Of a DNA stretch of 64,000 nucleotides, positions 31,830 to 60,102 are shown piece by piece. The DNA is from Salegentibacter salegens (GTDB lineage Bacteria; Bacteroidota; Bacteroidia; Flavobacteriales; Flavobacteriaceae): positions 434,001 to 498,000 of the forward strand of contig NZ_LT670848.1 in the NCBI RefSeq assembly GCF_900142975.1, given 5' to 3'. The position numbers were made by a program, and so were the translations under genes. The notes under the pieces are model-generated. The model saw nothing but the letters and a program-made list of their open reading frames with translations, was not told where the DNA came from and searched no databases. Every line of letters begins with the position of its first letter. Within the stretch, counting starts at the first letter, position 1.

Positions 31830-31914
31830 GCTCGGGTGGTGGAATTGGTAGACACGTTGGACTTAAAATCCAATGGACAATGTGTCCGTACGGGTTCAAG
31901 TCCCGTCCCGAGTA
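31830..31914 (+). tRNA. tRNA-Leu (UAA), island integration target
   Basis: An 85-base class II tRNA with a long variable arm. Acceptor GCTCGGG pairs with CCCGAGT (one G-U), the anticodon loop CTTAAAA gives UAA, and the T-arm reads CGGGTTCAAGTCCCG. Its last 12 bases form the start of the 56-bp repeat that recurs at 60047, so the gene is the attachment site of the island and was rebuilt intact on integration. Confidence 0.95.
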
Positions 31915-31958
31915 CTTAAAGCCTTGTTAATCATCTGATTTTCAAGGCTTTTTTGTTT
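31903..31958. repeat. attL: Island left attachment site (56-bp direct repeat)
   Basis: These 56 bases match 60047-60102 perfectly. They include the 3' end of tRNA-Leu and its terminator. The bases on either side of the two copies differ at once (C vs A before, T vs A after), marking the repeat limits. Confidence 0.9.
31917..31957 (+). terminator. tRNA-Leu terminator, contained in the attachment site
   Basis: AAAGCCTTG and CAAGGCTTT arms with a 16-base loop are followed by T's. The same hairpin is present in the right attachment site. Confidence 0.75.
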
Positions 31959-32282
31959 TTGAGATTTAATTTGTACGCTAAATTGTACGCAGAATGTTAA
32001 AAAATATCAGATTCACTATTTTAACTTTATCCTGTAAGATTTTTCCGATCTTGTTAATGAATCAGTCTAACATAAATTGCTTTAATATTTCTACTAACAA
32101 AAACTCACAAATAACATTAAATAACATCATATAACAACAAATATTGCAAAATAGCATCAAATATTATGATTTCTTGTTCAGCTATTTTATAAATGCTAAA
32201 TTTTAAAATACTTATTATTTTTTCGAGTATAGCGATCGATAAAAGCAATTTTAAAATGATGATATTATTAGTTTTTAATCTT
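31959..32282. other. AT-rich left end of the island, no gene; tandem TGTACGC motif
   Basis: No credible ORF. TTGTACGC occurs at 31971-31978 and 31983-31990, twelve bases apart and just inside the left attachment site, mirroring a pair near the right end; integrase arm-type sites are a reasonable guess. The rest is AT-rich with loose repeats such as AAATATT and ATAACA (32100-32165), and one half-site ATATTGCA of the palindrome that lies downstream. Confidence 0.5.
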
Positions 32283-32310
32283 TATATTGCATATCGCGAT
32301 ATGCAATATA
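32283..32310. promoter_or_regulatory. 28-bp perfect palindrome, likely operator of the HTH gene
   Basis: The half-site TATATTGCATATCG is followed directly by its exact complement, with no central gap. It ends 25 bases before the ATG of the adjacent regulator, the position expected for autorepression. Confidence 0.65.
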
Positions 32311-32335
32311 CGTTACGAAAGGATTGAATACACAT

Positions 32336-32827
32336 ATGAAACCTCAGGATATACTATTGCTGCTAAAGATTATTAGTATTGATGATGTTACTTGGAAACA
32401 AAAAAATGTAGCCGAGGCTTTAGGAATGAGTCAATCTGAAGTGAGTGAATCGGTAGCCCGTTCTAAATATTCAGGTCTATTAGATCCTAAAGGAAAAAAA
32501 GTAATGAAACTGGCTTTCATTGATTTTTTGCAATTCGGATTAAAATATGTTTTTCCACAAAAACCGGGACCGGTAGTACGTGGTATTCCAACTTCGCACT
32601 CAGCCGCTCCTTTAAGGGATCAAATAAAAAGTAGTGAAAATTATGTTTGGCCATCTGGTACAGGAACGTTGAGAGGACAAAGTATAATACCTTTATATTC
32701 TTCAGCTCCCGAAGCTGTTTTAAAAGATAATGATCTTCATGAATTATTAGCCTTGGTAGACGCACTTCGAGTAGGAAGAGCTCGAGAACGCGAAATAGCT
32801 ATAACTGAGCTTAAAAAACGTATATAA
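32336..32827 (+). CDS. Small HTH regulator next to the CRISPR array
   Basis: A 163-residue protein with an N-terminal winged/HTH domain: helix DVTWKQKNVAEALGM, turn, recognition helix SQSEVSESVARSKYSGLL. The C-terminal part has LALVDALRVGRAREREIAITELKKRI, which looks like a dimerisation helix. ATG at 32336 with AAAGGA 12 bases upstream is chosen over TTG at 32324. The 28-bp palindrome just upstream suggests autoregulation. No partner gene lies downstream; the CRISPR repeat region starts within about 80 bases. Regulation of the array or of integration is possible but unproven. I do not recognise a named family. Confidence 0.7.
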   Translation: MKPQDILLLLKIISIDDVTWKQKNVAEALGMSQSEVSESVARSKYSGLLDPKGKKVMKLAFIDFLQFGLKYVFPQKPGPVVRGIPTSHSAAPLRDQIKSSENYVWPSGTGTLRGQSIIPLYSSAPEAVLKDNDLHELLALVDALRVGRAREREIAITELKKRI

Positions 32828-32830
32828 ATG

Positions 32831-32877
32831 GAACTATAAATATCGCTATGGAATTTATTTTTATTCTGATTCACATG
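32831..32877 (+). repeat. Degenerate CRISPR repeat before the first intact repeat
   Basis: The right half, TATTTTTATTCTGATTCACA, closely follows the repeat 3' half (TATTTTTAATCAGGATTCACA), and the left half is only loosely similar. Exactly 29 bases, one normal spacer length, separate its end from the first intact repeat at 32907. This marks a decayed terminal repeat. Confidence 0.6.
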
Positions 32878-32906
32878 ATGGTAAATAATCCTTTGTAGTA
32901 TTTTTA

Positions 32907-35900
32907 GTTGTGAATTGCTTTCAGAATTGTATTTTTAATCAGGATTCACAGGGCTAATTGACCTAAACGATAATGCCAACGGTTGTGAATTGCTTTCAGA
33001 ATTGTATTTTTAATCAGGATTCACAGGAACTCGGTTTCTTTGCCCTTCATCGAGTTGGTTGTGAATTGCTTTCAGAATTGTATTTTTAATCAGGATTCAC
33101 AGGGATCCCCAGGCGTTCTTCAATAGCCGTGCTGTTGTGAATTGCTTTCAGAATTGTATTTTTAATCAGGATTCACAGGCAACCAAAGATAAAGACGAAG
33201 GATCCATCCGTTGTGAATTGCTTTCAGAATTGTATTTTTAATCAGGATTCACAGGTGGGTTTAATACATCGACAAGCAGCGACAGGTTGTGAATTGCTTT
33301 CAGAATTGTATTTTTAATCAGGATTCACAGGCCTGGGTGATGAGGATATGAAACCCATCCTGTTGTGAATTGCTTTCAGAATTGTATTTTTAATCAGGAT
33401 TCACAGGTCTGTACGGGTGAACAGGTTGTAAAATCACGTTGTGAATTGCTTTCAGAATTGTATTTTTAATCAGGATTCACAGGATATCTTCTATAATGTA
33501 TTTTGCGCCTTCCGTTGTGAATTGCTTTCAGAATTGTATTTTTAATCAGGATTCACAGGCATTCTGACCAAAAACATATACGTCATTGCGTTGTGAATTG
33601 CTTTCAGAATTGTATTTTTAATCAGGATTCACAGGAATCAATGGCGTAGTCTATTGTCAATACAGGTTGTGAATTGCTTTCAGAATTGTATTTTTAATCA
33701 GGATTCACAGGATCGTGACCCTCGCCATTGAATAACCAAGCGTTGTGAATTGCTTTCAGAATTGTATTTTTAATCAGGATTCACAGGAAGTTGTTGTATT
33801 TACGCCTTTCCGATATTGTTGTGAATTGCTTTCAGAATTGTATTTTTAATCAGGATTCACAGGAGAACCTTAGGAAATTCTCATTAAAAGAACGTTGTGA
33901 ATTGCTTTCAGAATTGTATTTTTAATCAGGATTCACAGGAATCAAATAACGGTTTGCCCTCGTAATGATGTTGTGAATTGCTTTCAGAATTGTATTTTTA
34001 ATCAGGATTCACAGGTATGCGTTTTTTGTTCTCTACAAATATACAGTTGTGAATTGCTTTCAGAATTGTATTTTTAATCAGGATTCACAGGAGTTTTCGG
34101 TTATTATCGGGGTCTTTACCGTTGTGAATTGCTTTCAGAATTGTATTTTTAATCAGGATTCACAGGATTCCTATGTATTTCAGAGTGGCAGGTTTCGTTG
34201 TGAATTGCTTTCAGAATTGTATTTTTAATCAGGATTCACAGGATGATAAAAAACAGTAATAAGGGTAATATCGTTGTGAATTGCTTTCAGAATTGTATTT
34301 TTAATCAGGATTCACAGGAGATTGGTCCAAAACCATAACGACCTCATCGTTGTGAATTGCTTTCAGAATTGTATTTTTAATCAGGATTCACAGGTCTTCG
34401 GGCAGTTCCAGATCACCAATGTGGTTGTGAATTGCTTTCAGAATTGTATTTTTAATCAGGATTCACAGGCTTGAGGAATTGAAGTGATTTGATTACCAGT
34501 TGTGAATTGCTTTCAGAATTGTATTTTTAATCAGGATTCACAGGCGTTATACTTATTCCTTTAAAGGATATTGAGTTGTGAATTGCTTTCAGAATTGTAT
34601 TTTTAATCAGGATTCACAGGTATTCACGCTGAAACTCCTGAGGGAGACGGGTTGTGAATTGCTTTCAGAATTGTATTTTTAATCAGGATTCACAGGGCCT
34701 GGGTTTTACTAAACCAGGCGACCAGGTTGTGAATTGCTTTCAGAATTGTATTTTTAATCAGGATTCACAGGTGAACGTGGTTTTATCCATAAACTCCCAG
34801 AGTTGTGAATTGCTTTCAGAATTGTATTTTTAATCAGGATTCACAGGGCCGCGTAATGATAAAAGCCAGGTCAAAGGGTTGTGAATTGCTTTCAGAATTG
34901 TATTTTTAATCAGGATTCACAGGCAAAGACAAAGACCAGCTTTAAACCTGGTAGTTGTGAATTGCTTTCAGAATTGTATTTTTAATCAGGATTCACAGGG
35001 TGCGGCTACTATATCATTGTTAGCAGCTAGTTGTGAATTGCTTTCAGAATTGTATTTTTAATCAGGATTCACAGGCTTACTCAAGATCAGGTTGATGAAC
35101 TCACCGTTGTGAATTGCTTTCAGAATTGTATTTTTAATCAGGATTCACAGGTAAAGCAAATATTGAAGCAAAATCAAAGCAGTTGTGAATTGCTTTCAGA
35201 ATTGTATTTTTAATCAGGATTCACAGGTTTAATGAGATCTTAAAAGCGAAGGCCCCGGTTGTGAATTGCTTTCAGAATTGTATTTTTAATCAGGATTCAC
35301 AGGTGTTGTTTTATAGGCTTTTAGCATAGCGCAGTTGTGAATTGCTTTCAGAATTGTATTTTTAATCAGGATTCACAGGAGCTGTGGCTTTGGGGCGTGT
35401 GTTAAATTGGTTGTGAATTGCTTTCAGAATTGTATTTTTAATCAGGATTCACAGGATAATGTTTTATAGGAACTTAAAAGACCTGGTTGTGAATTGCTTT
35501 CAGAATTGTATTTTTAATCAGGATTCACAGGTGTACCGGGATATCTATAGAAGCCGGCGCAGTTGTGAATTGCTTTCAGAATTGTATTTTTAATCAGGAT
35601 TCACAGGTTTCATTTGCTTAACCAACTCGGTAAGCAAGTTGTGAATTGCTTTCAGAATTGTATTTTTAATCAGGATTCACAGGTCTTTTGATTTTGCGAT
35701 CGTGGTTCCTTAGTTGTGAATTGCTTTCAGAATTGTATTTTTAATCAGGATTCACAGGTTGGAATCGCCGCGTCAACATATATTGCTTGTTGTGAATTGC
35801 TTTCAGAATTGTATTTTTAATCAGGATTCACAGGAACGGGAACCGTCAACAAACCGCGTTAAGAGTTGTGAATTGCTTTCAGAATTGTATTTTTAATCAG

Positions 35901-37501
35901 GATTCACAGGATCATTGTCCACGGATCAACAAGTGATTTGTTGTGAATTGCTTTCAGAATTGTATTTTTAATCAGGATTCACAGGAAAATTAGAAATTAT
36001 GACAGTTACAGCCTAGTTGTGAATTGCTTTCAGAATTGTATTTTTAATCAGGATTCACAGGAACGGATATATTGATCCATTATTAGACTTAGTTGTGAAT
36101 TGCTTTCAGAATTGTATTTTTAATCAGGATTCACAGGAAAGTAATACAGTTATAATATGCCAACCTAGTTGTGAATTGCTTTCAGAATTGTATTTTTAAT
36201 CAGGATTCACAGGTTTTTTAATTTCGATGAGTTCATTTTCAAAGTTGTGAATTGCTTTCAGAATTGTATTTTTAATCAGGATTCACAGGATTACGGATTT
36301 GAGAGCGTTTGGAATGCTGGTTGTGAATTGCTTTCAGAATTGTATTTTTAATCAGGATTCACAGGATGAGTAGCGCGGTTAATGTTGCTACTTTAGTTGT
36401 GAATTGCTTTCAGAATTGTATTTTTAATCAGGATTCACAGGATATCGGCAAAATGCTCTTCCAGGATATCAGTTGTGAATTGCTTTCAGAATTGTATTTT
36501 TAATCAGGATTCACAGGGCAATAAAATCATAGAATTCTGGAGTACCGGTTGTGAATTGCTTTCAGAATTGTATTTTTAATCAGGATTCACAGGAGCGTTG
36601 GCGTTTCTTATTGGCTTCATTAGTTGTGAATTGCTTTCAGAATTGTATTTTTAATCAGGATTCACAGGGAATAAAATATATATAACCGTTTTTAGCTAGT
36701 TGTGAATTGCTTTCAGAATTGTATTTTTAATCAGGATTCACAGGTCGTACTTTAAAAACCTGTGAGCCTTCGCGGTTGTGAATTGCTTTCAGAATTGTAT
36801 TTTTAATCAGGATTCACAGGCGTACTTTAAAAACCTGTGAGCCTTCGCGGTTGTGAATTGCTTTCAGAATTGTATTTTTAATCAGGATTCACAGGCCTTG
36901 CCTTCCAGTTAGCTTCCACACTCTAGTTGTGAATTGCTTTCAGAATTGTATTTTTAATCAGGATTCACAGGAGCAGCGATATTTTAGCCTGGCCGGCCAT
37001 GTTGTGAATTGCTTTCAGAATTGTATTTTTAATCAGGATTCACAGGATTTAACATTAAGTGCGTTTCCTTCACTAGGTTGTGAATTGCTTTCAGAATTGT
37101 ATTTTTAATCAGGATTCACAGGAACCATTCGCAACACCTTGTAAGATTCCCAGTTGTGAATTGCTTTCAGAATTGTATTTTTAATCAGGATTCACAGGGT
37201 TACAGGCGACGAAGCCCAGGAATAAAAAGTTGTGAATTGCTTTCAGAATTGTATTTTTAATCAGGATTCACAGGAATTGTTTTTATAACTGAAGGCGAAA
37301 GGGGTTGTGAATTGCTTTCAGAATTGTATTTTTAATCAGGATTCACAGGTTTTTAAACTGGTATGTTTATACACGCTGGGTTGTGAATTGCTTTCAGAAT
37401 TGTATTTTTAATCAGGATTCACAGGTTCAAGGGTTCCTGCATCTTTTAACAGTTGGTTGTGAATTGCTTTCAGAATTGTATTTTTAATCAGGATTCACAG
37501 G
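32907..37501 (+). CRISPR. Type II-C CRISPR array: 61 repeats, 60 spacers
   Basis: Sixty-one copies of a 46-bp repeat (starts GTTGTGAATTGC, ends GGATTCACAGG) were located one by one; all appear identical, including the first and last. Of the 60 spacers 49 are 30 nt and 11 are 29 nt. The repeat ends form a short inverted repeat (TGTGAAT ... ATTCACA). The tracrRNA anti-repeat at 43339-43363 pairs with the repeat 5' half read on the + strand, so crRNAs come from the + strand, opposite to cas9-cas1-cas2. Spacer 51 (36745-36774) and spacer 52 (36821-36849) share 29 bases. The uniform repeats and long spacer list indicate an active system. Confidence 0.98.
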
Positions 37502-37609: not shown

Positions 37610-37978
<369 letters not shown>

Positions 37979-37997: not shown

Positions 37998-38894
37998 TTA
38001 TTGATAAACTGGATAAAGAATCCTTCGGCTTAGATTAGCAAAACACTCGTAAAGTGAATTAGTCGTCCTACTAAGGGCTACCATTAGCGGACTCCATTTT
38101 CCATCAATAAAAACATCTAAGGCAGGAATTTTTAGAAGTTGGGATTTCAGGTCAGTAGTCAACTCGTCTATATTCTCTTCCGCAACCACCATTTCATAAA
38201 CCAGATCATCTACATAAATACGATAAGGTTCCATAATATCATCGGCCAGGGCAAAGGCATTGTATTTATTATGATGAAAGATTCCCACACCTGGCAGTAA
38301 GCCGGAACTAATTAGCGCTCTTGCAGTAATTGCTCTAAGAATTGCATAGCCGTAGTTAAGAAGGTTGTTGGGAGGATCCCCGTGCCGATATCTGGTAAAT
38401 CCTTCTATGCTAAAAAGGTTCTGCCAATAATGGGCGGCTGCAATGGCTTCGTGATTTTCAGTATCGCCGCTTTTTACCTCTCCCGCCCAACGCGCCAGTT
38501 TTTTATGGTTTTTATTCCTGCGAAAAAGGTGCTGCGCCTGGTTGCTGATTTTAGCACTAATGGTTTGCTGCCATAAATTTTTCTTTAAAGGCAAACTAGC
38601 GCTGAGTTGAACCGAAAAACGTTCGGTTTGTTCCGTATGCCCAACAAGGGGTTGTAAAATAGAGCAGGGTAGGTGTTGTTTATCGCAATTTACTACCGCC
38701 GCTTTATTTTGAATGAGTTTAGTAATTAGTCCGTTGGTTAGGGTGATTTGTGAGTTTTCTAAAACTAACATCCCGATATCTTCTATGGGTACAGTCTTAC
38801 TCTCTAGTTCTTCTAGCGGATAAGAAACCACTAACTGCTCATTCTTTGTACTGAGATAGGCTGGATTGCCGAAAAAGAGGGTGCGTTTTATCAT
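37998..38894 (-). CDS. cas1: CRISPR-associated endonuclease Cas1 (type II)
   Basis: A 298-residue integrase of the adaptation complex. N-terminal beta domain with SKTVPIEDIGMLVLENSQITLT, then a helical catalytic domain: Glu in ENHEAIAAAHYWQNLF (near 150), His in GVGIFHHNKYNAFALADD (near 205-215), Asp in LADDIMEPYRIYVDD. These are the metal-binding positions of Cas1. Its ATG overlaps the cas9 stop by four bases (ATGA), so translation is coupled. Confidence 0.95.
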   Translation of the reverse strand: MIKRTLFFGNPAYLSTKNEQLVVSYPLEELESKTVPIEDIGMLVLENSQITLTNGLITKLIQNKAAVVNCDKQHLPCSILQPLVGHTEQTERFSVQLSASLPLKKNLWQQTISAKISNQAQHLFRRNKNHKKLARWAGEVKSGDTENHEAIAAAHYWQNLFSIEGFTRYRHGDPPNNLLNYGYAILRAITARALISSGLLPGVGIFHHNKYNAFALADDIMEPYRIYVDDLVYEMVVAEENIDELTTDLKSQLLKIPALDVFIDGKWSPLMVALSRTTNSLYECFANLSRRILYPVYQ

Positions 38895-41800
38895 TTGACG
38901 ATCTTTTTAATATTCCCTAAACGATCAACCTGAAGTTTCCAACACAAGTTTTTTTCCTGAATAAATTCTAATTTATTTAACTGGCTAAATTCTAATTTAT
39001 TAGTAATGGATTTCGCAACTGAAAAAGGAATTCCATATAATCTTTTGTTTGTAAAACTCACTATTTTGTAAATATTTTCTTTTTTGAAGTTTTCAGGAAC
39101 TACCCCTGAGACCATATCTTCCTCGGTGGGAACATATATTAAATCATTCGGTGAAAGATAAAACAGAAACTCTCCTTTGGTATGATCAATAGGAATAGGC
39201 TGTTTATCCTTAATTGGAATATGAGCCAATTGTTTTTGGTGTTCTACCACTTCATTTAAGGGAATTGTTTCAAAGTTTCGCTTTTTCTTCTTATCGTCCC
39301 AATATATCGCAAAGAAAAGATTTGTTCCTTTTGCAGCTTCTACATACTTATCCGTTTTATTACTTCGTTCTCCTACACTAAATTTACTGCCTACTTCATA
39401 TTGTCTTACCTTATAAATGGGTTGGTGATTTTTACCCTTGTTTAATTCTTTTATATTTTGATTCAAATCAGTAATTCCTTTAGGACTGAATGCTTCTGCA
39501 AAATCTTCCTTCCCATTTTGATCTAGATGGTTTTTGACATGGTTCCTTAGAATTTTTTGTATGCTCTTATCAGTAATTTTATCGATATGTTTGTGGTTTT
39601 TTATATCTGAAATATTCGTCCGTGTGGCAGTAGCCACTTTTCCTTTGGGAGTGGGAATATCAATTAATCCGGAAACAGTTTCTTTGTGAAGTGGTTTTCT
39701 AACAGCAAAATTATTTCCCTTTTGTATTTGTAAAGCTTTTTTCCATTGCCCATCTTTCTTTTCCCAATGCCAGGTTTTATTGTTGGTTCGATTTATTACA
39801 CGGATATTCTTCTTAAAACTAATCACAATTTCTTCCAAAGCATTTTTGGCATCTATAGTAAAACCTTCCCAGGGCTGTTTGTAAGATTTTGCAACAGTGC
39901 GTTTTTTACCACCTAATTCTATGTCTTTAGTTTTGCGTAATTTTTTGACTAAACTGTGATTCTTACGTTCGGTGTTAATTGAGGTGATATAATTAATATG
40001 ATCTTTAGTTGTACAGGCAATTACTAAGGCATCTAAGGCGTGGTGACGGTGATCTATGCGTTTTTTGCTGAAGCCTGTTTCAATATCCTTAGGAACTTGT
40101 GTTCTAAAAGCATTAATTTTATTATCCCAATAGCCGTAGTCATTAGATTTTGTAATTTCGTTCATACGTTTGAAACGCGGAGCGATAATTTCATTCCATT
40201 TATCGTTTAGCCCCCAATCTTGTTTAAGTTGACTGGTTATAGCTCCATTTACCGGTACTAGGTTTTTTACTGTAGCTTCTCTTTCATTGGGTTCTCTTAA
40301 AATATTGCTTAGTAGACCTTTTATGAATTTGCTTATATATCGGCTATCATTTAATTGCCTGGTAATAAAACCTTCTGGAATATCCTCGCTCAACAGATAT
40401 TTTAATTTTGTTCGATTCTTGCTGTAGTAGTTTTTGCAATGGGCTTCATATTCTTCCACCGTAAAAATTGTACATTCTTTGCCGTTTATTCCTAATTCCG
40501 GCACAACACATCCTCGGCTGTTATTTATAAACTCATATGCGGTCTGGTTATCCTTATAGGGGTAGGGGTTAATAGCACTTTCGCAAATAACTTTATTATT
40601 AAAAGAGTCATCAAAGAAGCGTGATTGTGGAATAATGTGTTCAATTTGATAATCTGTAGTGAATAGTTTACTCATTGGAATTATATTTCCGGTATATGGT
40701 GAACGATACCCTTGTTCTAACCATAATTTATAGCGTAAAATATCTTTCTTGGTTGGCGAGTTCTTTTTCCTTATCGCTTCAATTTCATCTTCACCTACCT
40801 GATCGTATTTGGCGTTAAAATAAACACCTTCCTCATATAATTTTAGAATTTCTTGTTGATTTGGGGAATAAGGTTTTACTTCTTCAACACCTTCATCTTG
40901 TAGTTCTTCTAGAATCGCTTTTATACGCAGGTTTGTATTCTCCCGTTCGTTATTTTGATTGCTTAATCGTTGCCTTTTTTCAGCTGAATTTTTCATTTCT
41001 CGACCTAATTCGACATGGATTTCAGAGAAAAAATTCGGTTTACTATTACCATAATATTTCCAAATATCCCGGACAACCCTTAAAGTCTCAGGAACCACTT
41101 GCTCAACAATCGGATTTTTAAGTTGATGTTGCTTAAAGGTTTCGTTTAAATAGAATTCGATGTCTGAGGGTGACTGCCAATTGATTATTTCAGAAACCTC
41201 CGAATGCCGCTCGTAAACTGCATAGCAGGCTTGATAAGTATTTAAACCTTCAAAAATATTTTCTTTCTTTTCAAACTTGACAAAGCTTTTTAATACTTGT
41301 TTTTTATAGGCATCATCGGCAACCGTCTCAATTTTATCTTTATTAAAATTAATAGCCCTTAATCGTTCCTGAATATCCTTTATCCGGTTCTTAATTTCAG
41401 GTTTTAAAGATTCCTCATTCCAATATTTTCCCATCCGCATTAGCGGTAAAAGTTTTTTAATAGCTTTTTCTGAATAAGATCCGTAATCATTTGAATAAGG
41501 AGCTATTTTCTTAAAATTTTCGACAAATTCTGATTCTGAAACTTGTTTTTTTCTAGCAAAAGTATCTAAAGCTTTTTCGAAATCTTTTTTGTCTTTTACC
41601 GAGTAAACAATATGCCATAATTCTTTTTCAGTCTTTTTATCAAGAAAGTTTTCTTGTATGCCTTTAATTTTTTTTAATCTTGACAAAAACTCGGCTCGCG
41701 TTGTATTGCAGGGATATTTTTTGTCCTCTACATAATTCCATCGATAGGAGAGGGCATCTTTCTTTTGTTTTGGAATTAACCTTAAATCTGAAAAATATTT

Positions 41801-43305: not shown

Positions 43306-43336
43306 TTGTACAATTCAAATATTTGTTTTATACTTG
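43306..43336 (+). promoter_or_regulatory. Candidate tracrRNA promoter
   Basis: TTG at 43306-43308, a 20-base spacer and TATACTTG at 43329-43336 (one base off TAnnTTTG) would start transcription near 43340-43342, where the anti-repeat begins. Confidence 0.5.
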
Positions 43337-43338
43337 TT

Positions 43339-43422
43339 ATACAATTTTGAAGCAATTCACAATAAGGATTATTCCGTTGTGAAAACATTTAAAGCGGCCT
43401 TAACGGGTCGCTTTCATTTTTT
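43339..43422 (+). ncRNA. tracrRNA
   Basis: The first 25 bases (43339-43363) match the complement of the CRISPR repeat 5' half with one gap and two differences (both still pairing as G-U), giving the anti-repeat. A small GGA/TCC nexus-like hairpin follows at about 43365-43373. The transcript closes with a 9-bp stem (AAAGCGGCC, 43391-43399, with GGTCGCTTT, 43406-43414, one G-U) and a T run. It is divergent from cas9 and on the same strand as the crRNA template strand choice requires. Length is about 84 nt. Confidence 0.85.
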
Positions 43423-43507
43423 GGAATAGTAGGGTAGGCCAAATAAGATTAACATAATTACTGAAAATAATTATGATTTCCTATAAAAAATAAGGGAAAA
43501 CCCGTAG

Positions 43508-45040: not shown

Positions 45041-45126
45041 AATGTATGTTATAGTAAACAAATATAGCTAAAAATAGGGTTATTGTGGATTAAAATAAAC
45101 CTAAACTGTAATTAAAATTTATTTCG

Positions 45127-45246
45127 AGCCCCCATATCTACCATAACTTCCGCCGGATCCTATGCTGTTTTTATAGCATACGGGAAGTTAAGCGTAAAGT
45201 AAAAACAGCATTGGGGCGTTATTCGAATTAGTTAATGAGTTTCCTA
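45127..45246. repeat. Hairpin element, copy A
   Basis: About 120 bases closely match 54341-54459 in the same orientation (roughly nine in ten positions). Outer ends are GCCCC/GGGGC; an inner stem-loop is formed by CTATGCTGTTTTTA-like and TAAA..GCAT arms. It lies between hipB and the metal operon. It may be a transcribed hairpin, a recombination site or part of a former mobilization region. Confidence 0.6.
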
Positions 45247-49223: not shown

Positions 49224-49233
49224 ATTGAATTTA

Positions 49234-52200: not shown

Positions 52201-53571
52201 AAGAATAATTAGCTGCCCAAAAAAGGCAGAATTCATCATCTTTTTTGATGATGATGCTGCGATCTCATTCTTTTCAGATTTAGTGAGTTCGTTTCTTTTC
52301 TTCATTCGTTGGGAGATCATAAAGACAGTGCTTTCCACGATAATTACCGCACCATCTACTATAATTCCAAAGTCAATTGCGCCCAGGCTCATAAGGTTTG
52401 CCCATACACCAAAAGCATTCATAAGAATAAAAGCAAAAAGGAGGGAAAGTGGAATAGTAGAAGCCACTATAAGTCCACCACGCCAGTTTCCAAGTAGGAT
52501 GACCAGTACGAAAATCACAATCAATCCTCCTTCGAGCAGATTAGTGGTAACCGTGGAAGTGGTATCACTTATAAGTTCACTCCTATCCAGAAAAGGTTCA
52601 ATGGAGACCCCTTCGGGAAGAGATTTTTGGATCTGGACGATCCGTTCCTTTACATTTTCAATGACTTTATTGGAGTTAGCACCTTTCAGCATCATCACCA
52701 TTCCACCAACAGTCTCGCCCTGTCCATTTTTGGTAAGTGCACCGTATCTTACAGCACTGCCTATTTTTACATCGGCAACATTTTCTACGGTTATGGGAAC
52801 TCCGCCGCGATTCGCAACTACGATCTTTTTAAGGTCGTCTACACTGCGGGCCAAACCTTCCCCACGAATGAAATTGGCCTGGTGATTTTTTTCAATGTAG
52901 GCACCTCCTGTATTTTGATTATTATTTTCCAGGGCAGTGAATACATCTGAAATCGTAAGACCTATGGCATTTAATTCTTCGGGATCTACAGCGACCTCAA
53001 ATTGTTTAATTTTTCCTCCCACGCCGTTCACTTCTACAACGCCAGGCACCATCGCCATCTGTCTTCGAACGATCCAGTCCTGGATAGTGCGGAGTTCTGT
53101 AGGGGTATAATCATCTTTAAACTCGTCTTCGACCTCAAGGGTGTACTGGTAAATCTCTCCCAAACCTGTAGAAATAGGACCCATAGAGGGCTGGCCGAAA
53201 CCTTCGGGTATTTCCTCTTTTACGGCATCTAACTTTTCAGCCACAAGCTGCCGCGGGAGGTAAGTACCCATATCATCCTCAAAAACAATAGTGACAACAG
53301 AAAGGCCGAATCTGGAAACAGACCTGATTTCATTTACTCCCGGCAAATTACTCATAGCAATTTCCACAGGATAAGTTACGAACTGTTCAATATCTTCGGT
53401 TCCCAGGTTAGGAGCCTGGGTAATCACCTGTACCTGGTTATTGGTAATATCGGGCTGGGCATCTACGGGAACCTGTAACATGCTCCAAATTCCAGCCCCG
53501 ATGAGGACTACGGTAAGCAGCCCAATAATAAATTTATTATTGATCGAAAAATCAATGATCTTGTTAATCAT
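49234..53571 (-). CDS. czcA: CzcA/CusA-type metal RND pump fused to TolC-like outer membrane protein
   Basis: A 1445-residue protein. Residues 1-1030 are a heavy-metal RND transporter: N-terminal helix, PDITNNQVQVITQAPN, membrane helices around 340-540 and 860-1030, with the proton-relay-type GAIDFGIIVDGAVIIVE (near 400). From about 1045 a hydrophobic stretch (VLGVAVTVLLLSVPSTF, Ala-Gln) looks like an internal signal, followed by a TolC/CzcC-type domain (about 1060-1445) with two repeats of long helices (REIARERAF..., EEQRQGSLLAFNEGAIEYVAFIQNLDNAV). Fusion of pump and outer channel is known in Bacteroidetes. The internal signal must be cut or the two halves span both membranes. Confidence 0.92.
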   Translation of the reverse strand: MINKIIDFSINNKFIIGLLTVVLIGAGIWSMLQVPVDAQPDITNNQVQVITQAPNLGTEDIEQFVTYPVEIAMSNLPGVNEIRSVSRFGLSVVTIVFEDDMGTYLPRQLVAEKLDAVKEEIPEGFGQPSMGPISTGLGEIYQYTLEVEDEFKDDYTPTELRTIQDWIVRRQMAMVPGVVEVNGVGGKIKQFEVAVDPEELNAIGLTISDVFTALENNNQNTGGAYIEKNHQANFIRGEGLARSVDDLKKIVVANRGGVPITVENVADVKIGSAVRYGALTKNGQGETVGGMVMMLKGANSNKVIENVKERIVQIQKSLPEGVSIEPFLDRSELISDTTSTVTTNLLEGGLIVIFVLVILLGNWRGGLIVASTIPLSLLFAFILMNAFGVWANLMSLGAIDFGIIVDGAVIIVESTVFMISQRMKKRNELTKSEKNEIAASSSKKMMNSAFFGQLIILIVFLPILFLEGVEGKMFKPMALTFIFAMLGAMILCLTYVPMISALFLKEPKNTKRSFGDKVIIWLQNKYEPLLNKSLKRGKMILGLAVGFFALAVFMFARMGGEFIPQLDEGDIAFHIILQPGSSLDEGIETSTKIEKLLLAEYPEIEQVVTRFGVSDVPTDPMPMDIGDSFIILKDKSEWTSATTKDELIAKIKETIEIIPGVSYEFTQPVEMRFNELLTGVREDIAVKLYGEDLDLLASKAQEMGVIIGTVEGVADMKVEATAGLPQITINYNRNKTAQYGLQIKDLNTLVQSAFAGGQAGVIFQGEKRFDLVVRLQEEDRTSIENIRNLYVTLPSGAQVPLKEVADISYQPGPMQISRDNTNRRTYVGVNIRNRDVKSVVEDIQKKLDAQFELPPGYYIRYGGAFENFERASKRLQVVVPIALLLIFILIYFALKSFKQTTMIYIAIPLAAIGGVFSLWLRDMPFSISAGVGFIVLFGVAVLNGLVLISAFNELKEDGIKNINERIMKGSKRRIRPILLTALTDILGFLPMAISNSAGAEVQRPLATVVIGGLITSTLLTLFILPILYQWVESRKTNVNVNKKLVLGVAVTVLLLSVPSTFQAQEISQINPEISRKKAVELALQEYPLLKNKNREIARERAFKSSAWNLGQTQIFTGGEEIGDSRGIYTTIGFQQQNIDILGILPKKRLAGERIDLAEESYDLSQLQVSREVKKAWSKAFLGKQQYLLYERLDSLYTRLKRSVDLRYEVEAISRLEMLTAQNRISEIEIEKQQAQNDYMTALQKLNLWLGDDAVYGVPDEFEAGFFPGEELQVQAEHPLLQMAEQEVAVAQALVSVEKADFLPKFNLQYGLQKVNGASGFYSYQAGISIPILSGSDYADVKAARIEKKMAEESAAFAKEQVQSEYLVKLQNYKKWKASWEFYRDEVLPLLEEQRQGSLLAFNEGAIEYVAFIQNLDNAVQSELKALEAYKNFQIALAELQFYLNN

Positions 53572-53969: not shown

Positions 53970-53975
53970 ATTATA

Positions 53976-54340: not shown

Positions 54341-54459
54341 TTAAGCCCCATATCTACCATAACTTTCGCCGGATCCTATGCTGTTTTTATAGTGTACGGG
54401 AAATTAAGCGTAAAGTAAAAAAAGCATAGGGGCGTTGTTCTATTTAGATAATGGGTTTC
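54341..54459. repeat. Hairpin element, copy B
   Basis: Second copy of the element at 45127-45246. Here the inner stem is clear: CTATGCTGTTTTTA (54376-54389) and TAAAAAAAGCATAG with a ~26-base loop, inside GCCCC/GGGGC ends. It directly follows the stop of the bfmA-like gene. The part of the gap from 53984 to 54340 holds nothing I can identify. Confidence 0.6.
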
Positions 54460-55035
54460 CTATTCTTCATATTTTCTTTTAAGAATATCTAGTTCGGTAA
54501 AATTAATATCTATTTTATAGTACGGCTTTCCAAAGGTAGGTTCTACTTTAGTTATCCCTTTGATAATCTTAGAGATCATTTCTGAAAATTCCCTTCGATC
54601 TTTTTGCCGTGCATTTTTAAGCAAATCGTATTCCTCCTGCGAAACTTTCCCATCTTCTAGCTCCCATTCCTCCTTGGTCAATCTTCTAATATTTGTTTCC
54701 TCCAGTGGTCTTGTTTTAGCCTCCATTTTTTCAGCTTTATCAAAAAGTCCTGCAAGCATATTATAAGTAGGCTTATGATATTTTTCTTCGTGCTCCCTGA
54801 GCAGGGCAATAATAAAATCCAATCGGCCAATTATATAATTATAAAGCCCGACATAGTGCCTAAAAATTGGACTCCTGGGATGAATCTTTGTGACTTCAAA
54901 AAAGTCCATCATATCATCCAGGCTTTCCGAATGAGAGGGAGCTACATTTTTTGAAAACTTACGAAATCGTGCTGCCGTGATACGATTAATACTAATTGCA
55001 GAAAACAGGCTTTTTCTATCTTTATTTGTTTCCAT
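54460..55035 (-). CDS. BfmA/BtgA-like mobilization protein
   Basis: A 191-residue protein resembling BfmA/BtgA mobilization accessory proteins of Bacteroidetes transposons and plasmids. The N terminus KSLFSAISINRITAARFRKFSKN, then HSESLDDMMDFFE, is the typical ribbon-helix-helix-like DNA-binding start. Most of the rest is helical and charged. In mobilizable elements the gene normally precedes a relaxase gene; none is present here, so the element may rely on a relaxase in trans or be immobile. Hairpin element B lies at its 3' end. Confidence 0.7.
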   Translation of the reverse strand: METNKDRKSLFSAISINRITAARFRKFSKNVAPSHSESLDDMMDFFEVTKIHPRSPIFRHYVGLYNYIIGRLDFIIALLREHEEKYHKPTYNMLAGLFDKAEKMEAKTRPLEETNIRRLTKEEWELEDGKVSQEEYDLLKNARQKDRREFSEMISKIIKGITKVEPTFGKPYYKIDINFTELDILKRKYEE

Positions 55036-55694: not shown

Positions 55695-56360
55695 TCATTC
55701 TCGCCAACTTCTACCTTCCCATTTAATGATATTGAACATTTCCGGCAACCGGTCTCCAATATGATGTCCATACCGGGCCGATATTGCTGAGGGGTTTTCA
55801 TTGGTAGTCACAAAAGTTTTTAATCTTCGCTGGTGTCTTTCATAAAGCAATTTTCCGATGATCTCTTCCCGGTTATAGGCTTTATCTTCTTTACCCACAT
55901 CATCCAGATAAAGTTTTCCGCGGTAATAATCTTCTAGTTTAAAAATGCTGTTTTTATTTTTTTGTGATTCGTAATACCTGGTAAGTAGGTGAACAGTTGA
56001 GATCCGAGGAAACCAAAGTTGTGTACTTCGGGTTCGATCCAGAATTATTCTTCCAATGTTATGAATGGCATCAAAAAGCGTGGATTTTCCTACGCCGTAA
56101 CCTCCATACACCAACAATCCTTTGTCAAGTCCTGGTTTATTTTTTATTATACCAAACTCATTAAAATTAGGCTGTTGGAGGAAATACCGGAAAATGCTGA
56201 AAACTATATGTTGATTTTCCTCCGTTATTTGGAATTCGGGATACTGAGTGCGAAATAAATTCCAGAACACTTGTTTGCTAACCAGTGTTCGTTTAAAGTC
56301 AGGTTGCCTATTTTTTACAACAGGCTTTGATATAATATCTGGAAACTGGGTGCTAGTCAT
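55695..56360 (-). CDS. DnaC-like AAA+ ATPase
   Basis: A 221-residue AAA+ ATPase with Walker A GGYGVGKST (about 90-98) and Walker B KLYLDDVGKED (about 150-160), plus sensor-1-like TFVTTNENPSAI and an arginine-finger-like GDRLPEM. This is the layout of DnaC/IstB-type helicase loaders. Its start overlaps the preceding winged-helix gene by eight bases. Together they resemble a replication or primosome pair of an integrative element. Confidence 0.78.
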   Translation of the reverse strand: MTSTQFPDIISKPVVKNRQPDFKRTLVSKQVFWNLFRTQYPEFQITEENQHIVFSIFRYFLQQPNFNEFGIIKNKPGLDKGLLVYGGYGVGKSTLFDAIHNIGRIILDRTRSTQLWFPRISTVHLLTRYYESQKNKNSIFKLEDYYRGKLYLDDVGKEDKAYNREEIIGKLLYERHQRRLKTFVTTNENPSAISARYGHHIGDRLPEMFNIIKWEGRSWRE

Positions 56361-57159
56361 AACTCTGGATTTTATGCTGAACCTGTAAGTCCATTGTTTT
56401 AAGTCTCATCGGCTTATTACCCTGGGCGATCAACTGCCCGATTTTCTCTCTGAGTTTGTGGGTGCTTAGGATTATTCCTTTCCAAAATTCTTCAGAACCA
56501 TTTAGCAACTCATAGGCAAGCTGAAGTTGTTCTTCTGAAACACCATCTTTTTCCAGCATCAATCGAATTGGCATCAAACAATCATCGAATCCCGCCTGGT
56601 CTACTTTTTTTGTTGGTGCGCCTTTATTTTTTAAATTTTTTAAAAAGAGTTGCTGAAATTTAACCGCCCAGTTGAAATAGACCAGGTAGTTTTCAGGAAT
56701 TTCAGATTTATCAACTTTTAGAAATTCTTTTTTATTTAAAGTTTTAAGGTTTTTTAGTTTAAGGTTTAATTGTTTATCTATACTCGCAATGCTTCGGACT
56801 TGCTGAGTACAGTGCCCGGACACTGCTTTATGCAATGCTCTGTCCAATGCTTTAGGCGGTGCATTGGTATTTTTTACCAAAGCAATAATGTTGGAGGTGT
56901 ATTGGTTTTTGCTTTTCTGTTTCCATTGAATAAAATTCCAATCCACTAGATCTTCAAGGGCGCGGATATAAGTTTTATAGTTCTTGATTCCCAAAGCTTC
57001 CATAGCCAGATCGGTAGGAAAGCCAAATGTTTCTTTCCAGCCTAATCTATTGCAGCGTTCTATGGCAAAAAAGTAAATAGCGGTATGTACGGGTTTAACT
57101 TTGTTAGGATGATTAAAACTGAAATCAAACCACGCCCTTGAAAATTCGTATCCGTTCAT
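56353..57159 (-). CDS. Replication-type winged-helix protein (DnaD-like)
   Basis: A 268-residue protein. The N-terminal 90 residues (VHTAIYFFAIERCNRLGWKETFGFPTDLAMEALGIKNYKTYIRALEDLVDWNFIQW) form a winged helix similar to replication initiators. The middle is Lys/Leu-rich and disordered, and a C-terminal helical block follows. It overlaps the DnaC-like gene. DNA binding near an origin of the excised element is a reasonable inference. No named family is certain. Confidence 0.6.
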   Translation of the reverse strand: MNGYEFSRAWFDFSFNHPNKVKPVHTAIYFFAIERCNRLGWKETFGFPTDLAMEALGIKNYKTYIRALEDLVDWNFIQWKQKSKNQYTSNIIALVKNTNAPPKALDRALHKAVSGHCTQQVRSIASIDKQLNLKLKNLKTLNKKEFLKVDKSEIPENYLVYFNWAVKFQQLFLKNLKNKGAPTKKVDQAGFDDCLMPIRLMLEKDGVSEEQLQLAYELLNGSEEFWKGIILSTHKLREKIGQLIAQGNKPMRLKTMDLQVQHKIQSYD

Positions 57160-57195
57160 AGGAATAAAATTTATAAGTGGATTGAGAAACCGGTT

Positions 57196-57483
57196 CTAAT
57201 GGATTGGGCTTAAATCAATAAGTGCCTGTTCAATTTCGCTTCGCTTATAATACACACGTCGTCCCAATCCATATGGTTTCAGTTTGCCCCGCTTGGTCCA
57301 GTGGTGTACAGTTGAAAGGTCAATTTTAAGCATTTTAGAAACTTCAGTTCTTGTGAGGTATTCTTCCGGTTCCTTTGGACGAAATTCTTGTTTAAGGATT
57401 TCAATTTCTTTTTTCACTCCAAGTAGAATAACGTTTACTAATTCTTCAGGAGTTGTCTGGTGTAGTTGGATAACTTTTTTCAT
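57196..57483 (-). CDS. AlpA/excisionase-type HTH protein
   Basis: A 95-residue protein with a C-terminal MerR-like HTH_17: EYLTRTEVSKMLKIDLSTVHHWTKRGKLKPYGLGRRVYYKRSEIEQAL. The first 40 residues form a helix with Glu/Lys. Small proteins of this type act as recombination directionality factors (Xis) or regulators in integrative elements. It lies between the RteC-like gene and the replication pair. The excisionase role is inferred from fold and neighbours. Confidence 0.75.
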   Translation of the reverse strand: MKKVIQLHQTTPEELVNVILLGVKKEIEILKQEFRPKEPEEYLTRTEVSKMLKIDLSTVHHWTKRGKLKPYGLGRRVYYKRSEIEQALIDLSPIH

Positions 57484-57585
57484 TACATTGTGTTTTTTGG
57501 TTTACAATGCAAATCAATAAAATCTAATGGCATACCATTGGCATACTATGTCGTTAGTACGTCATAACTTTAACTTTTTCTTAAG

Positions 57586-58449
57586 TTAAGATCGGTTTAT
57601 CCATTGTTTCAAATGGAATTCCAGCTCGTGAATTAAGGGTGTTAAGTCTGTGGAACGTTTTCTTATAGATTGAAGTTTTTCACGCTTGTCAAAAGGTAAA
57701 TCTAATAGTTGCTGAAAAAAATCAAATACTTCTTTTTCGGATCCGCCATTAATTTTTTTAGCCTGGATAAGTGCTTTAATTAACTCGGCCAGTTCGAGAG
57801 GAGTACCCAGCCATTTAATACGATTTTCCTCGCGGAATTCTTTCAATTCCCGCTCTTGTAAAATACTATTTACTTTATAATGTTTATCAAGGCTGAGAAT
57901 AGATTTTTTGAAATCTAGAGTGTCCTGTTGGGAATATTGTGGTAGCGGATTATGGAAGGTGAAAAATTCGGTGATAATATTATCCTTCTCTGGAAGATGA
58001 AATTCCTCCAGTTTATTATGAAAAGCTTGAATAAAATCATATTCAGTAAGTAGATGGGGTTGACTTTGTATGGGTAAGCTCGGTAAATTTTTATCGACAG
58101 CTAAGACTCCTGTTATTTGCTGAACAATAGCTTCAAATAATAGAAAGTGGTATTTTTCTTTTGTTTGTAACGGTACTCCTTTATAGAGTAGAGGTCTTTT
58201 ATAAGTAGTATTGAAATAGGCCTTGACCTGGTAAGGCATGACTTTATAATTATTGATGAAGATTAGAATATCGTTATACAGGTCCCTCATAAAGATTTCC
58301 ATATCAACCTTAAAATACCTTCCGTGGGCTTTCTTAAAATAAAAATCGTAAAATGCGGAATTGATATCGATTTCCTGGAATTGCTTTAAGGAACATAGCT
58401 TTAAAACTGGTAGCTGTAACTGGTTATATTCAATATTTTTCGGCTTCAT
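57586..58449 (-). CDS. RteC-like protein
   Basis: A 287-residue protein whose C-terminal part (RIKWLGTPLELAELIKALIQAKKINGGSEKEVFDFFQQLLDLPF..., KLQSIRKRSTDLTPLIHELEFHL, about 207-283) follows the RteC pattern. RteC regulates excision and transfer genes of Bacteroides conjugative transposons. The N-terminal 200 residues are helical and not recognised. It lies 49 bases from the integrase gene, on the same strand. An RteC-like activator of excision would fit, but the match is from memory of the pattern. Confidence 0.6.
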   Translation of the reverse strand: MKPKNIEYNQLQLPVLKLCSLKQFQEIDINSAFYDFYFKKAHGRYFKVDMEIFMRDLYNDILIFINNYKVMPYQVKAYFNTTYKRPLLYKGVPLQTKEKYHFLLFEAIVQQITGVLAVDKNLPSLPIQSQPHLLTEYDFIQAFHNKLEEFHLPEKDNIITEFFTFHNPLPQYSQQDTLDFKKSILSLDKHYKVNSILQERELKEFREENRIKWLGTPLELAELIKALIQAKKINGGSEKEVFDFFQQLLDLPFDKREKLQSIRKRSTDLTPLIHELEFHLKQWINRS

Positions 58450-58498
58450 CTTTTAGATCGATATGATTGGATTCACAATAATTCCCATTTAACTAAAA

Positions 58499-59839
58499 TC
58501 AACTTTTAGCCGCCAGTTTTTCGTATAAATCTGCTATTTGCTGGGCACTATCCATAGCAGATTTTCCTATATATCCTAAGAACATTTTTTCCGTACTATG
58601 TGCGGTGATTCTCATTAATAATGGTGTTGGAAATATACCATATTGGTTAGTTGCAAAAGTCCTGCGGCATACGTGAGAAGTAATCAATTCGTGTTTGGGA
58701 AAAGTGCCGGTTATTTTTCTTTTAGTACCTTTCTCTTTATACCTGCCTTTTTCATCTTTTTCAAGTATTTCTCCGTTTTCACCAAGCATAACAATTTTTG
58801 CTCCTTCTGTAAGTGAATTTATTCCAACAGTTTTACATAGAATTTTTAAATCGTTATTAAAATTTTGAAGGGCTATTGGGTAGGGTAGTCCTTCCTTTAA
58901 AATTTCTTTTGTGGTGGGAAGTACAGGTATACTAACATTTTTGCCTGTCTTCTGTTGTTTCAGTTCAATTAGTTCCAAGCCATTTCTTGTGATAAAATTA
59001 TCCTCTGATAGACGTAGAAGATCACCTCCCCTTTGACCAATATTGCAACCCAATAATAGCCATTTTCTGACATTCTTAAGACTATCAGATTCTAATTGGG
59101 CCTTTTCAATTTTAAGAAGTTCTTCAGGAGTTAAATAAATGATGAAGTCATTTTTTGTTTTTCCTCCTTTTACCTTCTTAAGTTGATGACTAACTTCTAA
59201 ACCATTTATTTCAGCATCTGCACAGACTGACTTGAGATCATCAATTTTTTTTCTGGCATAACCTTCAGAATAATTTTGTGAACTGAGTAGCCAATCTAAA
59301 AATTTTCTACCAAATTTGATATCTACATCTTTCACTCGATACTTTTTAGCCCCTTGGTACTTTTTGAAAACGTTCAAAAGGTTTTTATAGGATTTAACCC
59401 TACTTAAAGAGATTCCCAAGCCTCCTCGAGCATTTTCTCGGGTATGAGAATGATCTATTAATTCTTGAATACAATCTGTTATTAAATCACTTTTAATTTC
59501 ATCATCCACATGTTCATCTTCCTCTGGATTGTAAAAATTGTAAAGAATTTCTTTAAGCCAATTTTTCTGTTCAGGTTTGGGTTTTTGCTTCTTATACTTA
59601 GAAAGAAGAAAGTCTTCTAATTCGGACAGTTTTGAATTAACTTCGGCTATTTTTCTTTTGTCAACTGCATCTAAACCCCGCCTTTTATGCCTTGTAGTAT
59701 TCCAATACTCTTTTGGAACCTCCAACTCTGTTTTAGCTTCAAATTGAAACTTTTTGTTATTATTATCCTTATCTTGTAGGCGCACTGTAAGTGGAGCATG
59801 TTGCCTTTTGGAACGGTAAAGAAAATATATTGTAGCCAT
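58499..59839 (-). CDS. Tyrosine recombinase (island integrase)
   Basis: A 446-residue tyrosine integrase. N-terminal arm/SAM-like DNA-binding domain (about 100-210), then the catalytic domain with Arg I in GQRGGDLLRLS (near 269), HVCRRTFAT (His-x-x-Arg box near 388), and the tyrosine nucleophile in MFLGYIG (near 421). It lies at the right end, about 207 bases from the right attachment site, and is the obvious enzyme for recombination between the 56-bp repeats. TGTACGC motifs lie just upstream of its start. Length is normal. Confidence 0.93.
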   Translation of the reverse strand: MATIYFLYRSKRQHAPLTVRLQDKDNNNKKFQFEAKTELEVPKEYWNTTRHKRRGLDAVDKRKIAEVNSKLSELEDFLLSKYKKQKPKPEQKNWLKEILYNFYNPEEDEHVDDEIKSDLITDCIQELIDHSHTRENARGGLGISLSRVKSYKNLLNVFKKYQGAKKYRVKDVDIKFGRKFLDWLLSSQNYSEGYARKKIDDLKSVCADAEINGLEVSHQLKKVKGGKTKNDFIIYLTPEELLKIEKAQLESDSLKNVRKWLLLGCNIGQRGGDLLRLSEDNFITRNGLELIELKQQKTGKNVSIPVLPTTKEILKEGLPYPIALQNFNNDLKILCKTVGINSLTEGAKIVMLGENGEILEKDEKGRYKEKGTKRKITGTFPKHELITSHVCRRTFATNQYGIFPTPLLMRITAHSTEKMFLGYIGKSAMDSAQQIADLYEKLAAKS

Positions 59840-59884
59840 AAGGATTTATTGAGTAATTATAAAGATAAGACATATTCATTTTTG

Positions 59885-59903
59885 TTGTACGCAAAATGTA
59901 CGC
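59885..59903. promoter_or_regulatory. Tandem TGTACGC motif upstream of the integrase
   Basis: TGTACGC at 59886-59892 and 59897-59903, same orientation, 11 bases apart; the pair inside the left end is 12 bases apart. Likely integrase arm sites or an int operator. The rest of 59904-60046 holds nothing I can identify. Confidence 0.45.
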
Positions 59904-60046
59904 ACGAGGAAGAATATAAAAGAATTTTGCGCAATCCATAACAATTTAACCTGGGACAACATAGTGCCGTGAGCTGTTGATTTTACTAAGCTTATGCTGG
60001 TTTTTGTTGATATCGGAAACGAACTTAAAATTTTAAGGAAACACTA

Positions 60047-60102
60047 CCGTCCCGAGTACTTAAAGCCTTGTTAATCATCTGATTTTCAAGGCTTTTTTGT
60101 TT
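60047..60102. repeat. attR: Island right attachment site (56-bp direct repeat)
   Basis: Perfect copy of 31903-31958. It contains the last 12 bases of tRNA-Leu but no upstream tRNA sequence, and repeats the terminator hairpin. The chromosome resumes at 60103. Confidence 0.9.

Follow-up and report, generated by a model that had tools for sequence, protein, structure and literature searches.

A genomic island at tRNA-Leu(UAA) of Salegentibacter salegens with a probable HipBA-bordered slot for swappable CRISPR-Cas systems

Introduction

CRISPR-Cas (clustered regularly interspaced short palindromic repeats and associated proteins) systems on islands and the swapping of Cas9 proteins in Flavobacteriales are already known, and we compare with them a 28.1-kb element of Salegentibacter salegens (genome of 4.01 Mb, called G000 here). 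The element lies between tRNA-Leu(UAA) and yihY in the 64,000-nucleotide stretch of contig NZ_LT670848.1 that we refer to as the window (contig positions 434,001 to 498,000; coordinates given alone are window positions). With a probability of roughly 80%, we read it as a composite island of the integrative and mobilizable type, in which the genes hipBA border a slot whose CRISPR system can be swapped. This HipBA-marked swap slot looks new, and we found no description of the island in the Creative Commons–licensed PubMed Central (PMC) literature on Salegentibacter CRISPR or on HipBA, CRISPR, and islands, as covered by titles and abstract openings. Together with its relatives, the island offers a natural series of one island position, at which the CRISPR system is in place, exchanged for one of another type, combined with a different Cas9, or gone, and scars record this history.

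Except for PMC4832164, the articles cited were available as excerpts, to which our statements about them refer. CampyICE1 (PMC8743540) is an integrative and conjugative element (ICE) at tRNA-Met, with conjugation genes, that carries a type II-C Cas9 alone with short arrays. Like our island, it is a chromosomal element that has a II-C Cas9 and, next to a tRNA gene, an integrase, but CampyICE1 has conjugation genes and its CRISPR system is degenerate, whereas the island has cas1, cas2, 61 repeats, and a HipBA-marked slot, with no conjugation module found in it. A sequence-only reading of the window, made without database searches, had contrasted the location with II-C systems being usually described as chromosomal; given the degenerate II-C Cas9 of CampyICE1, the location is in itself no surprise. 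Vibrio GI-24 (PMC6360697), whose excision was detected by nested polymerase chain reaction, likewise carries CRISPR-Cas on an integrase island with att sites. Islands of the GI-24 type, however, are type I-E and belong to Vibrionaceae, and we found no mention of a HipBA border in the excerpt.

As for integration, NBU1 inserts in the 3′ end of tRNA-Leu, and integrative and mobilizable elements (IMEs) that lack a relaxase exist (PMC5704250). The island resembles IMEs of the NBU1/Tn4399 type in its tyrosine integrase, its use of the tRNA-Leu 3′ end (NBU1), an accessory mobilization protein, the possible supply of a relaxase in trans, and tandem composites (PMC5704250). It differs from them in its CRISPR cargo, in that no relaxase was found, and in that its hairpin element D3 is a candidate, not an established, origin of transfer (oriT).

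On the CRISPR side, in situ Cas9 exchange in Flavobacteriales II-C loci has been published (PMC12669027, Extended Data Fig. 9), with close cas1 genes accompanied by distant cas9 genes. The pairing of a class A Cas9 on the island with a class B Cas9 on the G000 chromosome is a case of this, and differs in that a single genome holds both Cas9s, with one on an island, and that scars show replacement by a type I system. In addition, S. mishustinae KCTC 12263 carries a I-B system (PMC4832164) with the same repeat and a similar array position as our genome G007; that article mentions no island, HipBA, or scar of a trans-activating CRISPR RNA (tracrRNA).

Results

A 28.1-kb island is enclosed by perfect repeats

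31830–31915, plus strand: tRNA-Leu(UAA), the target gene
31903–31958, plus strand: attL-like 56-bp repeat, perfect copy 1
60047–60102, plus strand: attR-like 56-bp repeat, perfect copy 2
60896–61876, minus strand: yihY-like gene (named by reading the sequence), chromosomal flank outside the island

The two copies of the 56-bp direct repeat are letter-perfect, the extended match being 58/59 bp, and copy 1 takes in the last 13 bp of tRNA-Leu(UAA). Inside the island no third copy was found (best ungapped match, 29/56), and a search of the whole 4.01-Mb genome with the tRNA plus repeat (E ≤ 0.001) returned the two copies and one 30-bp tRNA-like match. With repeats at its ends, one of them in a tRNA 3′ end, and a tyrosine integrase inside, the element has the defining marks of a tRNA-integrated genomic island. 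Its minus strand encodes the integrase, RteC- and Xis-like proteins, a protein of unrecognised family, DnaC- and BfmA-like proteins, a metal-efflux block, hipB-hipA, and cas9-cas1-cas2; these are followed by the array, whose 61 repeats are identical, and, next to the tRNA on the plus strand, by a gene for a 167-aa helix-turn-helix (HTH)–like protein.

These results bear out what the sequence-only reading had said of limits and content. It had described perfect repeats enclosing about 28 kb, one over the tRNA 3′ end, and an integrase with Xis-, RteC-, DnaC-, and BfmA-like genes, which profile matches support (those for DnaC and Xis being below curated NCBIfam cut-offs). HipA/HipB, Cas9-Cas1-Cas2, the P-type ATPase, the Fur-family regulator, and the resistance–nodulation–division (RND) efflux pair that it had listed are all present.

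A slot beside hipBA holds different CRISPR systems in related genomes

The slot of G000 is bounded by hipA (43508) and the HTH-like gene (32827).

32324–32827, plus strand: 167-aa HTH-like protein (HTH by reading of the sequence), PADLOC candidate family PDC-M21A, E = 1.5e-47
32828–32906, plus strand: end of the array trailer with a degenerate repeat-like stretch (by reading of the sequence)
32907–37501, plus strand: CRISPR array of 61 identical 46-bp repeats and 60 distinct spacers of 29–30 bp; cas2 side from 37502
37610–37954, minus strand: cas2 (PF09827, 4.6e-18)
37998–38894, minus strand: cas1 (PF01867, 1.6e-30)
38891–43246, minus strand: cas9, 1451 aa, class A
43320–43430 (ends approximate), plus strand: predicted tracrRNA, with anti-repeat, conserved core AATAAGGATTATTCCGTTGTGA, and terminator
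43508–44770, minus strand: hipA (Couple_hipA and HipA_C)
44777–45061, minus strand: hipB (HTH_3)

We scanned 18 island proteins with Pfam. The presence of cas9, cas1, and cas2, with no csn2 or cas4 match among the scanned proteins, corresponds to the gene set of type II-C, and HipA_C plus Couple_hipA with an upstream HTH antitoxin mark HipBA, by its domains, as a putative toxin–antitoxin pair. The predicted duplex between the tracrRNA anti-repeat and the repeat has −31.8 kcal/mol, as against a minimum of −27.3 in 100 shuffles.

The comparison covers a genus set of 15 genomes including G000, in which HipBA islands are counted from the retrieved loci, the genomes not having been searched systematically for HipA. 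HipA relatives at 91–95% identity are found in Salegentibacter agarivorans, S. holothuriorum (G004), and Salegentibacter sp. 24 (G011). G007 is probably S. mishustinae, judging by repeat sequence and array position; between the same borders it carries cas8b, cas7, cas5, cas3, cas6, cas1, cas2, and cas4 of a I-B system with an array of at least 40 copies. A stretch of 82 nt adjoining its hipA agrees at 81 positions with the island sequence that holds the 3′ part of the tracrRNA and the terminator (score 79, against 11 for the best of 500 shuffles), and G007 yielded neither a match to class A Cas9 nor a repeat of the island CRISPR family within 3 mismatches. The HTH-like gene is the tRNA-side border of the slot; it is present in G007 and has an early stop (142 aa) in G011. 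There, the stop of hipA and the shortened HTH-like open reading frame (ORF) are 147 bp apart, and 28 of 29 nt in between match the CRISPR repeat, with a score of 26 as against at most 11 in 500 shuffles. In G004, hipA is followed by a class B Cas9 in two ORFs, with cas1 and cas2 that are 94% and 99% identical to those of the island; the contig stops after cas2 and the tRNA is near the end of another contig, so that the left border of the slot is not visible. Finally, G003 has a class A Cas9 cassette beside transfer-messenger RNA (tmRNA) and a tyrosine integrase and retains 177 bp of the hipA 3′ end at 76%; no repeat of the tmRNA 3′ end was found within 20 kb around this cassette. The tracrRNA core is common to the Cas9 loci of G000, G003, G010, G012, and G013, with one change in G007. 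These scars in three relatives (G007, G011, and G003) indicate that HipBA and CRISPR were together before the losses and share a history.

The slots could differ for another reason, namely that different complete islands occupy the same att site and no cassette is exchanged within one island. Several islands do use the site, and in G001 and G011 a 61–62% integrase next to the HipBA part suggests a tandem array. However, G000 and G007 agree on both sides of the slot, having in common the integrase (96%), rteC, xis, rep, dnaC, HipBA, and the HTH-like gene. This agreement, the tracrRNA tail kept by G007, and the repeat scar kept by G011 speak against replacement of whole islands, which we regard as unlikely. 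We favour a swappable slot, in which HipBA and the HTH-like gene would border one CRISPR-Cas system at a time: II-C with class A Cas9 in G000, I-B in G007, class B Cas9 in G004, and a scar in G011. Recombination between or near the borders may swap whole systems, while HipBA most likely stabilises the element, presumably by addiction.

Two genes in these loci are split into two ORFs each by decay or sequencing error, the class B cas9 of G004 (L081:14278-18550) and cas8b of G007 (L066:12462-14302).

The tRNA-Leu(UAA) site is used by several islands

54460–55035, minus strand: BfmA/BtgA-family mobilization protein (NF041200, 1.8e-19)
55695–56360, minus strand: DnaC/DnaI-like ATPase (matches below curated cut-offs)
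56353–57159, minus strand: protein of unrecognised family, perhaps replication-related by its position
57196–57483, minus strand: Xis-like HTH_17 protein (naming NCBIfam match below curated cut-off)
57586–58449, minus strand: RteC-like protein (PF09357, 3.1e-07)
58499–59839, minus strand: tyrosine integrase, 446 aa

The element's own part would consist of int-rteC-xis-(rep)-dnaC-bfmA and hairpin D3, with the HTH-like gene at the tRNA end, and its integrase would recombine a core within the 56-bp repeat. A related integrase (at least 40% identity to that of the island) occurs in 8/15 genus genomes, G000 included. It is contiguous with the tRNA in G000, G007, and G008, and in the drafts G001, G002, G006, G011, and G014 its assignment to the site is by yihY, mscS, or a repeat copy. 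Of the repeat copies next to these integrases, those of G000, G001, G006, G007, and G008 are exact or almost exact, and those of G002, G011, and G014 match at 40–43/56 nt. The tRNA-side contig of G006 carries as cargo a type I restriction-modification cluster that includes GmrSD-like (HEC-05) and PDC-M15A proteins, and in G008 two repeat copies enclose a type IIG (MmeI-like) enzyme. The site is a hotspot for mobile elements, used by several islands with differing cargo. Beside the 61–62% integrase, there is a match to a group II intron domain in G011 (L076:14316-14436) and G001 (L078:247-367).

The sequence-only reading had proposed to look for relatives with an empty site holding one repeat copy. 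Such relatives exist in G005, G009, and G012, each with a qualification, and they support the reading as an integrase-type island at tRNA-Leu. G005 retains both flanks, with some 1.8 kb from tRNA to yihY that contain a symporter gene, a single diverged repeat (44/56), and a short left-arm-like stretch but no integrase of the related kind. In G009 and G012, a single copy lies at the tRNA, and the roughly 19 kb read there include neither a related integrase nor the yihY flank.

The DNA from int to dnaC (55695-59839) is 95.3% identical in G007 and 95.4% in G006, while the corresponding values for G007 and G006 are 94.4 and 92.9% for rpoB, 88.1 and 86.2% for the left-flank gene, and 80.2 and 79.4% for yihY. 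That this segment is more similar than neighbouring genes points to movement of the element between species.

Points against a mobile slot, and the tie between HipBA and CRISPR

Several observations weigh against a mobile island with a swappable slot. The absence of Cas9 from G007 holds for class A only; the class A query missed the class B Cas9s of G000 and G006. The flanks read around the class A Cas9 loci of G010, G012, and G013 contain no trace of hipA. Outside the genus, none of 51 HipA loci (54 found, three of them from Salegentibacter) is linked to CRISPR, as judged by tblastn with 13 cas queries in flanks of up to 10 kb that were often cut by contig ends, and we rejected the idea that HipBA generally travels with CRISPR. 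In G007, HipBA (89.6% identity to the island) and the HTH-like gene (92.5%) fall below the integrase segment, and with slot borders less alike than that segment, the two parts may have moved separately. Among the 18 proteins scanned, where an IME in the strict sense would have a relaxase of its own, there is no match to PF03432, and the gene set of the island supports excision, not self-transfer; transfer, if any, would need excision by Int/Xis and a relaxase acting in trans on D3. Lastly, related strains with the same genes in the same place but no integrase or repeats had been named in the sequence-only reading as evidence that would overturn it. G004 comes partway to this, with HipBA and CRISPR genes beside yihY and no integrase or right repeat in the 20 kb read, although a truncated dnaC remains near them, which suggests a copy that has decayed, not one that never was mobile.

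Some of this would also follow from a long-standing chromosomal locus of CRISPR and HipBA, not mobile itself, that an unrelated integrase element joined by chance: HipBA is at the site in G004, G001, and G011 with the integrase end of the HipBA part missing or cut, no relaxase was found in the island, and HipBA DNA is 89–92% identical in relatives, below the integrase segment. We nevertheless consider such a locus highly improbable, with the site regions retrieved from G005, G008, G009, and G012 containing no match to HipBA, with integrase-segment DNA that is more similar between species than the flanks, and with a perfect repeat pair that encloses CRISPR, HipBA, and integrase together.

HipBA and CRISPR may share a history only, with no functional tie, and we see the odds of this as even. 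HipBA persists without CRISPR in G001 and G011, and the 51 HipA loci outside the genus show no link to CRISPR. It is directly beside the slot in G000, G004, and G007, and there are the repeat scar of G011 and the hipA fragment of G003, but all of this speaks to history, not function. The series makes two ideas testable: that HipBA protects CRISPR cargo from loss and that mobile and host CRISPR systems share CRISPR RNAs (crRNAs).

The metal-efflux block is separate cargo flanked by hairpin D3

45130–45216, minus strand: hairpin element D3, second copy (candidate oriT)
45217–45340 (ends approximate), minus strand: degenerate 3′ relic of a second bfmA
45553–47445, minus strand: heavy-metal-type P-type ATPase, 630 aa (metal type by reading of the sequence)
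47610–48026, minus strand: Fur-family regulator
48045–49295, minus strand: CusB/HlyD-type periplasmic adaptor
49234–53571, minus strand: RND efflux pump fused to an OEP domain, 1445 aa
53655–54011, minus strand: DUF6660 protein
54346–54432, minus strand: hairpin element D3, first copy (candidate oriT), 3′ of bfmA

The metal genes are flanked by a 123-bp repeat (D3, 89% identity) at 45130-45252 and 54346-54468. The block adjoins bfmA on one side, and the degenerate end of a second bfmA lies beyond the hipB-side D3 copy. The block is absent beside HipBA in G001, G004, G007, and G011; G007 has a single D3 copy directly followed by HipBA, and in G001 a related metal block, whose pump is 58% identical, adjoins the repeat on the tRNA side of that genome's locus. 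The metal block is separate cargo. On the simplest reading, suggested by the duplicated D3 and the bfmA relic, it came from a second element, of the same family as the first, through a tandem fusion at D3/bfmA with loss of what lay between; no third att copy remains to prove such a fusion. Of the proposal in the sequence-only reading that CRISPR, HipBA, and metal efflux form one excisable unit, the common history of HipBA and CRISPR survives by its scars, and the metal block drops out on account of the D3 copies, the bfmA relic, and its absence from four relatives. The metal pump and its outer-membrane OEP domain are a single 1445-aa ORF (49234-53571).

D3 has a match in 26 of the 397 genomes of our family comparison set, G000 included. 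Within the 3 kb read at 19 D3 loci outside G000, a relaxase relative is present in nine, a BfmA relative in three, a DUF6730 relative alone in two, and none of the three in five. Four relaxase candidates near D3 (L158, L159, L161, and L170) were scanned with Pfam, and all have PF03432. We measured covariation on 20 D3 sequences, two from the window and 18 from the 19 other loci. Its 14-bp stem has 34 cells changed on both sides and a covariation of 0.306, compared with 0.074 in shuffled pairs and at most 0.032 in slid pairs; weaker measures are the pairs changed on both sides (5; 30/500 shuffles as high) and the pair types (8; 328/500). No plasmid match was found for D3, and G000 has one PF03432-type relaxase outside the island (C1:1408443-1409303). 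As a structured, conserved element at mobilization genes, D3 is a concrete candidate oriT for mobile elements of Flavobacteriaceae, at which a relaxase would act.

A second type II system in the same genome has nearly the same repeat

G000 has a chromosomal type II locus (G000:C1:1700000-1719900, L218) with a class B Cas9 of 1419 aa, whose best stretch of similarity to the class A Cas9 is 26% over 244 aa. Its cas1 and cas2 are 94% and 98% identical to those of the island, and its 54 repeats differ from the island repeat at 1/46 nt. No spacer is identical between the two arrays, and island spacer 23 (34621-34650) and chromosomal spacer 31 (L218:10488) share 23 nt at an offset of 3, which suggests that both systems sampled the same or a homologous invader; an exact search for this 23-mer in viral contigs found nothing. 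The predicted pairing of the island tracrRNA is −30.9 kcal/mol with the chromosomal repeat, and this value, like that with its own repeat, is below each of 100 shuffles. For the chromosomal tracrRNA, predicted pairing with either repeat (−23.7 and −23.4) is not better than the best shuffles, so that only the island tracrRNA is predicted to fit both repeats.

It is a tentative and rather doubtful idea that island and host share one immune memory, with crRNAs and new spacers of either array able to serve both Cas9s. If true, a host that acquires the island would add to its existing memory a second Cas9, unrelated to the first. Fonfara et al. (PMC3936727) inferred that two type II systems in one cell function independently, each with its own array, as stated in the excerpt; G000, with nearly identical repeats and unrelated Cas9s, would be a good test of that inference.

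Searches with the spacers gave little. Against phages, the array produced two weak matches of the same 24 nt (E = 0.4). Spacer 44 has a 27-nt match in G196, the sole match within a spacer among ten query intervals checked, which we do not claim as a target. Against 281 loci, besides the own arrays and the spacer 23/31 pair, there were matches of 16–21 nt only. G006, G010, and G012, from which 15, 20, and 39 spacers were read, have none that is identical to an island spacer or overlaps with one (shared 14-mers). The CRISPR half of the island matched plasmids only over 57 bp of the tRNA region. Within the array, the adjacent spacers 51 and 52 (36745 and 36821) share 29 nt, spacer 51 having one extra starting base.

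Junctions of Cas9 exchange across Flavobacteriaceae

Cas9 exchange was dropped as a new finding, being already in PMC12669027, and what we add concerns the position of its junctions. Our sample of 47 Cas9 loci comprises seven from the genus and 40 chosen from matches in 77 of the 397 family genomes, half with high and half with low similarity to class A Cas9. It divides into 24 loci of class A, 3 of class B (all from the genus), and 20 of class C, class B being under-sampled as the class A query misses it (also in G000 and G006). On a Cas1 tree of 43/47 loci (four were dropped with Cas1 missing or short, and some long branches are flagged), the Cas9 class changes 16 times, with a mean of 16.1 for shuffled labels (as low in 116/200), and a single clade for class C is rejected (p = 2e-9).

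The tracrRNA core is found within 600 nt upstream of cas9 in 21/24 class A, 16/20 class C, and 0/3 class B loci. G017 (class A) and G402 (class C), which belong to one genus, have 91% DNA identity through the tracrRNA and about the first 76 nt of cas9, where it stops, to resume 25 nt before the cas9 stop. The same pattern is seen between G033 and G085 at 80–90% and between G269 and G044 at 70–78%, the latter with two short internal matches. By these alignments, the junctions are the tracrRNA with the start of cas9 on one side and cas1 on the other, a detail that we did not find stated in the excerpt of PMC12669027. In three relatives, there are extra ORFs between cas9 and cas1 (L071:1097-1738, L073:9693-10169, and L219:7193-7789); two have no Pfam match, and the third is transposase-like by reading of the sequence.

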